Shown: positions 18,130-22,448 of the stretch, in pieces
Layout: each line of letters opens with the position of its first letter
How positions within the stretch are numbered: the first letter of the stretch is position 1
Assembly: GCA_902560315.1 (NCBI GenBank)
Contig: CACELG010000007.1
Span: 1 to 55,057 of the forward strand
Length of the DNA stretch: 55,057 bases
Reading direction: 5' to 3'
Origin: an uncultured SAR86 cluster bacterium
Lineage (GTDB): Bacteria; Pseudomonadota; Gammaproteobacteria; Magnimaribacterales; D2472
The notes under the pieces: generated by a model
Told to the model about the DNA's origin: nothing
The model's input: only the letters and a program-made list of their open reading frames with translations
The model's database searches: none
Program-made: the position numbers and the translations under genes

Positions 18130-18795
18130 GTGAATAAATTCGATTCTATAAGACCCTACAATGATAACGAGGTAAATGATGTACTTTCTCAGTTATCTAG
18201 TAATAGAAGATTTTTAAAAATGTTGTTCGCAACAGGAAAGTTTAATCAAATTAGATACTTCCCATTCTCTAGAAAATTACTAAGCCTTGTTCTTAAAAAT
18301 AGAATTAAAAATATAAATGACGTAAATTCATATCAAAATTTATTTGAAGGTATTGTTTCAGGTATTGTTCAACAGTCAATCAATAAATTTTCTGTTGAAG
18401 GAATCAAAAATTTAGACTCAGAAAAAGGGTATCTTTACATCTCCAATCATAGAGATATCACTTTAGATTCAGCGCTGCTCAATCTAACACTGCATCAAAA
18501 TAATTTGAAAACAACATACAACGCAGTTGGAAACAATCTATTAAGTGAAAAATGGGCTTCTGATCTCATGAGATTAAATAAAAGTTTTATTATTGATAGG
18601 AGTGATAAATCAAAAAGAGATATTTATAAAAGTTTAAATCTCGCCTCTGAATTTATATTTAATGCAATTAAAAATAAAAATGAGTCTGTATGGATTGCTC
18701 AAAAACAGGGAAGATCTAAAGATGGAAATGATTATACCGATCCATCTGTAATTAAGATGATTCATTTAAATTCAAGAAAAAAAGGTACCGGTTGA
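18130..18795 (+). CDS. PlsC-like acyltransferase, N-terminal part (frame broken at A7)
   Basis: The GTG-started frame gives 221 residues containing the acyltransferase motif region YISNHRDITLDSALL and the downstream WIAQKQGRSKDG..DPSVIKM, which resembles the glycerolipid acyltransferase group with HRDI-x-x-D. After RKK it runs into a short unrelated tail and a stop. The homologous continuation (VPVDQYLNSLNIVPVS) is present in the +1 frame directly after the run of seven A at 18777-18783. The two parts are one gene split by a one-base change or joined by slippage. Confidence 0.8.
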   Translation: MNKFDSIRPYNDNEVNDVLSQLSSNRRFLKMLFATGKFNQIRYFPFSRKLLSLVLKNRIKNINDVNSYQNLFEGIVSGIVQQSINKFSVEGIKNLDSEKGYLYISNHRDITLDSALLNLTLHQNNLKTTYNAVGNNLLSEKWASDLMRLNKSFIIDRSDKSKRDIYKSLNLASEFIFNAIKNKNESVWIAQKQGRSKDGNDYTDPSVIKMIHLNSRKKGTG

Positions 18796-19240
18796 TCAAT
18801 ATCTAAATAGCTTGAATATTGTTCCAGTTAGTATTTCATATGAAAAAGATCCTAATGACCTATTGAAAGCTAAAGAATTATATTTAACAGATTTGAATCA
18901 AAAATATACCAAAGATAGAAAAGAGGATATGGAAAGCATATCAGACGGAATTACCGGTGATAAAGGAGATGTTCATTTAAGCATTGGTAAAATAATTAAT
19001 TTTAAATCAGATTCTTATGATGATTGTTCTAATCAAATAACTAAAGCAATAAAAGATTCATACAAATTACATCCTACAAATTATGCAGCTGCGATTATTC
19101 AAGGAAAGGATAATCCAAATGACTCAAACGATTTAGATAAAATTGATGACGCTATTCAATATCTTGAAAATAGAATCAAACTGCTTCCTGAGGACATGCA
19201 ATCATATCTGCTTAATCAATATAGCAATCCAGTTTTGTAA
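18785..19240 (+). CDS. PlsC-like acyltransferase, C-terminal part (frame +1)
   Basis: From VPVDQYL onward this frame continues the acyltransferase: NIVPVSISYEKDP is the strand after the catalytic core, followed by a helical, Lys/Asp-rich tail. It has no good start of its own (TTG at 18812 is inside the domain), so separate translation is unlikely. The absence of further stops or gaps implies selection on the whole protein until recently, or a base-call error at the A run. Confidence 0.75.
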   Translation, partial: VPVDQYLNSLNIVPVSISYEKDPNDLLKAKELYLTDLNQKYTKDRKEDMESISDGITGDKGDVHLSIGKIINFKSDSYDDCSNQITKAIKDSYKLHPTNYAAAIIQGKDNPNDSNDLDKIDDAIQYLENRIKLLPEDMQSYLLNQYSNPVL

Positions 19241-19270: not shown

Positions 19271-19308
19271 AAAAAAAAGAGAAGAGCTATATTGAATAGC
19301 TCTTCTCT
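19271..19308 (-). terminator. Intrinsic terminator of the porin-glnK-amtB operon
   Basis: On the minus strand a perfect 13-base-pair stem (AGAGAAGAGCTAT / ATAGCTCTTCTCT, 5-base loop) is followed by eight T residues, a textbook Rho-independent terminator about 60 bases after the amtB stop. On the plus strand the same hairpin lacks a U-tract, so it serves mainly the minus-strand operon. Confidence 0.88.
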
Positions 19309-20615: not shown

Positions 20616-21562
<947 letters not shown>

Positions 21563-21597
21563 TTATATCTCCTTTAAAATACTTACATAAATATATA

Positions 21598-21614
21598 TGC
21601 AATTGATGTGCCAA
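21598..21614 (-). promoter_or_regulatory. Sigma-54 (RpoN) promoter of the porin-glnK-amtB operon
   Basis: On the minus strand the 17 bases read TTGGCACATCAATTGCA. This matches the -24/-12 consensus TTGGCAC-N5-TTGCA exactly, with GG and GC ten bases apart. The predicted start of transcription is about 26 bases before the porin ATG, leaving room for its AAGGAG site. Control of glnK-amtB by NtrC and RpoN is established in other proteobacteria. No clear NtrC dyad fits in the 63 bases upstream, so the enhancer may lie inside the divergent SDR gene. Confidence 0.82.
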
Positions 21615-21677
21615 TAATTAAATTCATATTTTTTTCTTAAAAGAAGTTATAATTTTTATGAGTTAATAGGAGTATTT

Positions 21678-22448
21678 ATGGAACTTAAAGATAAAGTAGC
21701 GTTAATAACAGGTGGGGCGTCAGGCTTAGGTCAAGCTACGGTCGAGGCATTTGTTTCAAAAGGTGCAAAGGTAGTCATATTAGACATAAACGAAGAAAAA
21801 GCTAATGAAATAATTAATAACCTTGGCGAAGATAACGTTATGTTTATCTCAACGGATATTATGCAAGAAGATCCTGTTGTTAATGCTGTAAAGAGTATTA
21901 ATGAAAAATTTGGAGGCCTTCATATAGCAGTTAATTGTGCAGGAACTGGATATCCTGGAAGAATTCTTGGAAAGGAAGCTCCTCACCCTTTAGATGCTTT
22001 TAAATTTATCATCAACTTAAATCTTGTAGGAACCTTTAACGTAATGAGAATAGCTGCAGAGCTTATGGATAAAAATGAACCTGATGACAAAGGTGAGAAG
22101 GGTGTAATCATCAATACAGCTTCTATCGCAGGCATTGAAGGTCAAATTGGACAATCAGCTTATAGCGCATCAAAGGCAGGTGTTATTGGGTTAACGTTAA
22201 CAGCTGCTAGAGATTTAGCTAGACATGCGGTTAGAGTTTGTACGATTGCTCCTGGAATATTTGATACTCCTCTAATGCAGCTTGCGCCTGATAAAGTAAG
22301 AGACCCTCTCCTTGAATCTACTCAATTTCCGCATCGTTTTGGTAAACCGCACGAGTTTGCAGACTTAGCAGTGCATATAGTAGAGAACACTTATTTAAAT
22401 GGAGAAACGATAAGACTTGATTCAGGAATGCGAATGAAACCTAGATAA
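21678..22448 (+). CDS. SDR oxidoreductase, 3-hydroxyacyl-CoA dehydrogenase type 2-like
   Basis: A 256-residue short-chain dehydrogenase: cofactor loop TGGASGLG (about 11-18), NCAGTG, catalytic Ser149, Tyr162 and Lys166 (YSASK). The insert with GKEAPHPLDAFKF and the C-terminal FPHRFGKPHEFADL..GETIRLDSGMRM match the HSD17B10/type 2 3-hydroxyacyl-CoA dehydrogenase group, which oxidises short or branched 3-hydroxyacyl-CoA with NAD. AGGAG lies before the ATG. It diverges from the porin operon. Confidence 0.92.
   Translation: MELKDKVALITGGASGLGQATVEAFVSKGAKVVILDINEEKANEIINNLGEDNVMFISTDIMQEDPVVNAVKSINEKFGGLHIAVNCAGTGYPGRILGKEAPHPLDAFKFIINLNLVGTFNVMRIAAELMDKNEPDDKGEKGVIINTASIAGIEGQIGQSAYSASKAGVIGLTLTAARDLARHAVRVCTIAPGIFDTPLMQLAPDKVRDPLLESTQFPHRFGKPHEFADLAVHIVENTYLNGETIRLDSGMRMKPR

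Follow-up and report, generated by a model that had tools for sequence, protein, structure and literature searches.

A predicted sigma-54 promoter ahead of a porin-glnK-amtB operon in a SAR86-cluster bacterium

The porin-glnK-amtB locus

The window (the whole stretch of DNA that was analysed, 55,057 nucleotides of contig CACELG010000007.1, assembly GCA_902560315.1) carries on its minus strand three consecutive genes for a TorF-family putative porin, a P-II family protein and the ammonium transporter AmtB, followed by a 3' hairpin and an intrinsic terminator (Table 1). The closest matches to the porin come from SAR86 cluster bacteria, including SAR86A and SAR86E. The P-II protein scores below both of the P-II equivalog cut-offs listed, so its name, glnK, rests on its place beside amtB. 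In ten related loci (L070, L077, L087, L088, L092, L093, L106, L113, L114 and L115) the transporter that follows glnK is only ~27-33% identical to the window AmtB, which suggests that another type of Amt belongs to the operon in these loci. Convergent with the operon are two adjacent plus-strand frames, 18130-18795, which matches PF01553, and 18812-19240, which has no match; they are perhaps one acyltransferase gene split by a frameshift.

Table 1. Features of the porin-glnK-amtB locus (window coordinates)
Feature	Position	Strand	Basis or remark
-24/-12 (sigma-54) promoter element TTGGCACATCAATTGCA	21598..21614	-	sequence, uniqueness in window, family conservation
Shine-Dalgarno-like AAAGGAG of porin gene	21569..21575	-	read from sequence
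TorF-family putative porin, 200 aa, Gcw_chp/TIGR02001	20960..21562	-	TIGR02001 80.5 bits (cut-off 47.15); predicted signal helix and 12-stranded barrel
P-II family protein (glnK by position)	20616..20954	-	below cut-offs of two P-II equivalog models listed
Ammonium transporter AmtB, marine subtype TIGR03644	19369..20601	-	571.7 bits (cut-off 514)
3' UTR hairpin UUUAAUA..UAUUAAA with CUCCCCC (19343-19337) in loop	19312..19368	-	single-sequence fold
Intrinsic terminator of operon, AGAGAAGAGCUAU-loop-AUAGCUCUUCUCU and U-run	19271..19308	-	sequence, fold
Divergent short-chain dehydrogenase, outside operon	21678..22448	+	63 bp from element

Sigma-54 promoters follow the consensus TTGGCA plus TTGC, with GG and GC ten bases apart, and transcription usually starts about 12 nt past the GC. 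The element ahead of the porin gene has TTGGCA, TTGC and the GG-N10-GC spacing: on the minus strand its GG occupies 21612-21611 and its GC 21600-21599, separated by ten bases. It begins 52 nt upstream of the porin ATG at 21562, and its spacing would place the transcription start near 21587. A first-pass annotation of this DNA had described a near-perfect sigma-54 site on the minus strand, with GG and GC exactly ten bases apart and at the right distance from the porin start and its AAGGAG site; its sequence, strand, coordinates and spacing are all correct, with the ribosome-binding site reading AAAGGAG.

The significance of such a match depends on how much of the consensus is demanded. Bare GG-N10-GC pairs occur 168 times in the window (94 expected) and are uninformative on their own, and TGGCN7TTGC, found 25 times with 20.5 expected, was dropped as a regulon probe. 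The pattern TGGCAYN5TTGCW, by contrast with the bare pair, occurs without mismatch only once in the window (0.14 expected), at the porin element, and the long form TTGGCAYN5TTGCAT likewise only once (0.01 expected). Genome-wide there are four long-form sites, as compared to 0.19 expected when the window's first-order Markov model is extrapolated to genome size, and at all four an ATG begins 51 to 56 nt after the element start. The genome scan for GG-N10-GC sites that the first-pass annotation had suggested is of little use with the bare pair and telling with the long form.

The TorF-family protein likely forms a pore. An AlphaFold2 model built with 53 sequences (mean pLDDT 86.9, pTM 0.79) predicts a helix at residues 2-15 and 12 strands, and the top folds listed by VIA-align are those of the 12-stranded monomeric porins KdgM (Z 19.2, 155 residues, 1.9 A), VhGalP (18.4) and NanC (17.8). 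The predicted barrel resembles theirs, though perhaps only in the arrangement common to such barrels; identity is 10-11%, and so we claim neither a family nor a substrate from this resemblance.

Conservation and apparent loss of the sigma-54 machinery

The source genome is a SAR86-cluster draft of 1,082,665 bases in 19 contigs, rated 90.2% complete. It contains a single PF04552 match, rpoN, in a frame of 461 aa; read from MAIVLSK, the encoded protein retains the activator-interacting, core-binding and DNA-binding domains, and it scores over the TIGR02395 cut-off (285.1 vs 277.35). NtrC (TIGR01818, 632.2 vs 558.6) and NtrB (NF008293, 265.8 vs 240) also exceed their cut-offs, and their adjoining genes stand behind a glutamine synthetase gene (L379 1240-2211, minus strand). 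The best model for this synthetase is GlnII and not type I GlnA, with a GlnII score of 357.5 bits that falls short of the 500-bit cut-off. Only NtrC matches PF00158 strongly in this genome (246.9 bits); the next is ClpX, at 16.1 bits or, joined with its neighbours, at 21.6 bits, which is then just over the cut-off. The first-pass annotation had named a genome without rpoN as the finding that would speak against its reading; because the draft genome encodes one rpoN, that objection fails, and ntrC is present too, within the glutamine synthetase-ntrB-ntrC cluster.

We compared 107 draft genomes of the family, whose genera are labelled g1, g3, g5 and so on. A porin relative is present in 82 of them, and all 82 upstream regions were read. 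Seventy-eight lie outside genus g3, and one of these (L073) reads N at the element, which leaves 77 readable upstreams; TTGGCAY-N5-TTGCW is present in every one (77/77, dinucleotide shuffle mean 0.01), the pattern having been fixed after the upstreams were viewed and the anchored profile, which requires the core letters, having been failed by 0/77. The conservation upstream of torF-like genes that the first-pass annotation had proposed to check is found in all readable porin upstreams outside g3. In these 77 the distance from element to ATG ranges from 41 to 67 nt, and the positions around the element mostly hold less than 1 bit. The family retains rpoN in 87/107 genomes and ntrC in 81/107 (E <= 1e-40), with exactly one ntrC match in each of the 81. 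RpoN retention had been considered informative on the grounds that streamlined marine lineages often lack the factor, a view that we rejected, as retention is the rule in this family and it is the loss in one genus that is informative.

That genus is g3, in whose ten draft genomes (completeness ratings 78 to 93) neither rpoN (0/10) nor ntrC (0/10) was found. The element is missing at all four porin genes found there (0/4), one of which keeps TTGGCAC without the GC half, and the three long-form elements among the matches listed for the ten genomes each fall within a reading frame. The porin and amtB adjoin in all four porin loci, and in three of the four glnK is unmatched and amtB lies directly 3' of the porin. 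Five g3 genomes have amtB, namely the four porin-bearing ones and one more, in which the match starts at the end of a contig; the other five have neither gene. Since g3 is one clade of related genomes, we count it as one event that rpoN, ntrC and the element are all missing there, and it is probably a single natural loss. The porin gene keeps its element outside g3 and has none in g3, where rpoN was not found (77/77 vs 0/4, one clade). Six genomes do not fit a strict rule: G026, G031, G037, G092, G097 and G098 have a porin element and no rpoN match. We assume incomplete assembly in these cases; G097 is rated 92% complete.

The operon extends well beyond the family. In a sample of 370 genomes rated 90% complete or more from the class, taken to be Gammaproteobacteria, PF09694 occurs in 194, and among 14 control genomes it occurs only in Caulobacter. 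We read the 30 best-scoring porin loci of the class, which are not a random sample, and found glnK near the porin in 25 and amtB in 26; in those 25 loci glnK lies on the strand of the porin and behind it. TGGCAYN6TGC precedes 19 of the 25 glnK-bearing loci (0.12 in Markov shuffles), and an NtrC-type GCACN7GTGC is present within 600 nt in 18 (0.41 in Markov shuffles). As gene order and elements are shared, nitrogen control of a porin-glnK-amtB operon probably dates back far in the class, SAR86 having kept the operon; the idea that it is a SAR86 speciality was rejected, as it is widespread among the best class-sample loci. The open literature, seen mostly as titles and abstracts, yielded no description of a porin-glnK-amtB operon in searches on TorF with amtB or porin and no SAR86 sigma-54 circuit in searches on SAR86 with rpoN, sigma-54 or NtrC; a TorF match in PMC7214821 is an author's name.

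Activator boxes and alternative readings of the element

Within the family, the long-form element also precedes unrelated genes, namely those for a TonB-dependent receptor, for proteins of a 131-aa and a 93-aa type (neither with a family match over a cut-off), for lone glnK copies and for glnII. These non-porin sites were taken from genomes up to G068, those being partly read, and part of the sites could not be assigned a gene; in the 74 loci examined, the clusters of downstream proteins number 23 (TonB), 8, 8, 7 (glnK) and 4 (glnII). The source genome itself has the element before a TonB receptor and both small-protein types (L015, L022 and L034). The receptor (L015 / L382, G000:C2:148452) and the small proteins (L022, G000:C3:16544; L034, G000:C14:3666) all have relatives that lie behind the element in other genera, and the receptor is possibly a nitrogen-stress receptor.

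NtrC boxes occur at only some of these promoters. An unbiased search for five-letter dyads in 78 non-porin upstreams ranked TGCAC-N7-GTGCA first, which we take to be the classical NtrC box of the E. coli-type consensus, with 9 sites as compared to 0.00 in shuffles; the best count for any dyad over 30 shuffles was 8, and the nine sites, being promoters of one gene in related genomes, are not independent. All ten glnII promoters read (9 in g5, 1 in g6) have a box of at least 9 of 10 letters, eight of them with a pair of boxes that precede the element by about 75 and 23 nt, and a box is present at 3/5 lone glnK promoters of other genera. The other element-bearing types gave 0/25 for the TonB receptor, 0/8 for the 93-aa type, 0/18 for the small RNA described below and 1/8 for the 131-aa type (these counts by promoter type omit L121, L183, L194, L198, L203 and L138 and the duplicates L132, L134 and L135). 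At the porin promoter, 0/77 upstreams reach 9 of 10 box letters over up to 500 nt, and the 5/77 that reach 8 are no more than in shuffles (6.1); the commonest dyads in the 77 porin upstreams are mostly AT-only repeats. The source genome has no exact TGCACN7GTGCA, and its glnII upstream has a 9-of-10 box without a clear sigma-54 element. In the relatives L250 and L252 the amtB terminator is followed by another sigma-54-like element, here accompanied by an NtrC box that matches exactly (TGCACAAATATCGTGCA), and then by a further reading frame.

The first-pass annotation had placed the porin under the same nitrogen control as ammonium import. This holds insofar as no strong sigma-54 activator other than NtrC was found in the genome, which is why we infer shared control, and it lacks the support of an NtrC box at the promoter. 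The pattern of boxes at glnII and lone glnK promoters and none at the porin lends some weight to a real sigma-54 promoter that works differently, with NtrC acting here without a box, from solution or through degenerate sites, or with another activator encoded in the part of the genome that a 90.2% complete assembly leaves out. Against these possibilities stand the single NtrC-like protein per genome in all 81 that have a match and the NtrC-type box in 18/25 of the equivalent class operons, from which ancestry points to NtrC; we consider them open to serious doubt, though worth keeping in mind. Transcription of the operon from a sigma-70 promoter, with the sigma-54 match owed to chance or a relic, is very improbable: GG-N10-GC pairs are common and AT-rich sequence fills the 63 bp up to the divergent gene, but a search for sigma-70-like sites over 21500-21760 gave none (0 vs 1.4 in shuffles), the element persists in every readable upstream outside g3 while porin identity falls to about 51%, the genome holds its four long-form sites where 0.19 are expected, and the element is missing where rpoN was not found, so that a chance site was rejected as the origin of the porin element. 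Least probable of all is that the stretch is kept for some other reason, e.g. as a 5' leader RNA feature or as the binding site of another protein, as might be suggested by the roughly 1 bit held at some positions 3' of the element, but the element sits upstream of the expected transcription start and is shared by unrelated genes (TonB receptor, two small proteins, glnII, small RNA).

C-rich RNAs and a proposed nitrogen circuit

A conserved stretch that has no reading frame and is convergent to a TonB receptor gene likewise follows the element in genus g5; PF00593 is present in both RNA-neighbour genes checked, one in g5 and one in g7. The structured RNAs of g5 and g7 lie directly behind the sigma-54 element, contain UUUCCCCC-like stretches and in most copies end in a terminator (g5 loci L166, L168, L172, L173, L176-L178, L180, L182, L186, L188, L189, L191, L193, L150 and L162; g7 loci L200 and L201). 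A consensus of 15 aligned g5 copies has 37 pairs, 6 of them with changes on both sides (L193 of alignment A1 was omitted from alignment A3 as divergent), and fold z-scores are -8.6, -8.8 and -6.4 for three g5 copies and -6.1 for one g7 RNA. RNA model R1 matches 17 of the 107 genomes, all in g5 (17/26), 15 of which supplied the model sequences, and under the stricter filters used above 40 genomes it has no match in the source genome. Rfam, run on 11 sources, returned two tRNAs and no other RNA family.

A related feature follows amtB. Of 81 sequences, 67 have readable 3' ends (an amtB more than 60% identical, with 70 nt after it), and a C-rich run lies no more than 70 nt past the amtB stop in 42 of these, as compared to 2.3 expected in Markov sequences; in 38/42 single-sequence folds the run stays unpaired within a loop closed by a stem. 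The window and 41 further amtB 3' ends (among L239-L318) thus have a hairpin with a C-rich loop between stop and terminator, the stem sequences of which differ between genera, and the CUCCC loop is kept in the three g3 loci read. The 25 ends without a C-rich run belong to g5 (17), g7 (5), g10 (1) and g1 (2), g5 and g7 being the genera where stand-alone C-rich RNAs occur. RNAalifold found only 3 pairs in alignment A6 (23 rows, picked as hairpin carriers), and the 3' UTR hairpin therefore rests on single-sequence folds.

At the sequence level we have a conserved element, genes for RpoN, NtrB and NtrC, a defined gene order and one genus in which neither rpoN nor ntrC nor the element was found; together these argue that a sigma-54 (RpoN) promoter very probably drives a porin-glnK-amtB transcript under NtrC and nitrogen limitation in this SAR86-cluster bacterium. 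Sigma-54 RNA polymerase would bind the -24/-12 element as a closed complex; upon nitrogen limitation NtrB would phosphorylate NtrC, whose ATPase would open the complex at the porin promoter, presumably without a recognisable box, and from a single operon the 12-stranded outer-membrane pore, P-II and AmtB would be produced together. The pore presumably passes ammonium or small nitrogen compounds across the outer membrane, and AmtB would import the ammonium. The C-rich RNAs may have a regulatory role. More tentatively, and with rather less confidence than doubt, the SAR86 nitrogen response could be a one-activator sigma-54 circuit with an RNA arm, in which C-rich RNA is made when the circuit fires, arising from the 3' UTR of the porin-glnK-amtB message in several genera including that of the window and from its own sigma-54 promoter in g5, with similar RNAs in g7. 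This RNA would pair with G-rich ribosome-binding sites of transporter messages, and one genus would have lost the sigma-54 part, while a porin next to amtB and a C-rich hairpin remained in some of its members.

Several known systems resemble parts of this arrangement. The enteric glnK-amtB operon is under NtrC and sigma-54. So is the enteric glnALG operon, according to the available text of PMC9731577. The SAR86 genes share with these systems a sigma-54 element, adjoining P-II and AmtB genes and an ntrBC pair behind glutamine synthetase, but the SAR86 operon is led by a porin, no NtrC box was recognised at its promoter and its synthetase is nearest to GlnII. The TorF/Gcw_chp loci of the class have the same porin-glnK order (25 of the 30 best) and a sigma-54-like element (19/25), and differ in their NtrC-type box (18/25), which is not recognisable at SAR86 porin promoters. 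The torF gene of Shewanella oneidensis is named 'TMAO reductase system outer membrane porin' and listed with TMAO respiration in the part of PMC5955497 available; the likeness lies in NCBI's TIGR02001 family name and not in a sequence comparison, and it concerns TMAO, not ammonium uptake. Non-coding outputs of the NtrBC/RpoN response are described in the accessible portions of PMC9308961 and PMC9731577, respectively, for NrsZ of Pseudomonas aeruginosa, which has its own gene, and for GlnZ of Enterobacteriaceae, a 3' UTR product, whereas the predicted SAR86 RNAs are rich in C and are located at amtB or next to a gene for a TonB receptor.

SAR86 is described as one of the bacterial groups that are most abundant in surface waters of the global ocean (PMC11582366, available text). 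The accessible text of PMC9277239 covers the charge of SAR86 Amt and contains none of the words 'porin', 'promoter', 'operon' or 'rpoN', and that of PMC11582366 notes SAR86 amtB and GS-GOGAT and contains none of 'sigma', 'regulat', 'porin' or 'rpoN'; neither of these portions gives a promoter or sigma factor for SAR86 ammonium uptake. The porin element itself is a well-supported sigma-54 promoter of a known kind, and what should interest specialists is the loss at the level of a clade, the lack of a recognisable NtrC box and the C-rich RNAs. With one sigma-54, one strong activator and a handful of targets, the circuit is small enough to be outlined from sequence, and its target genes would provide a short list of nitrogen-stress signs for ocean transcriptomes. 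The genus in which neither rpoN nor ntrC was found, some members of which keep the porin and amtB, indicates what streamlining may retain when regulation goes.
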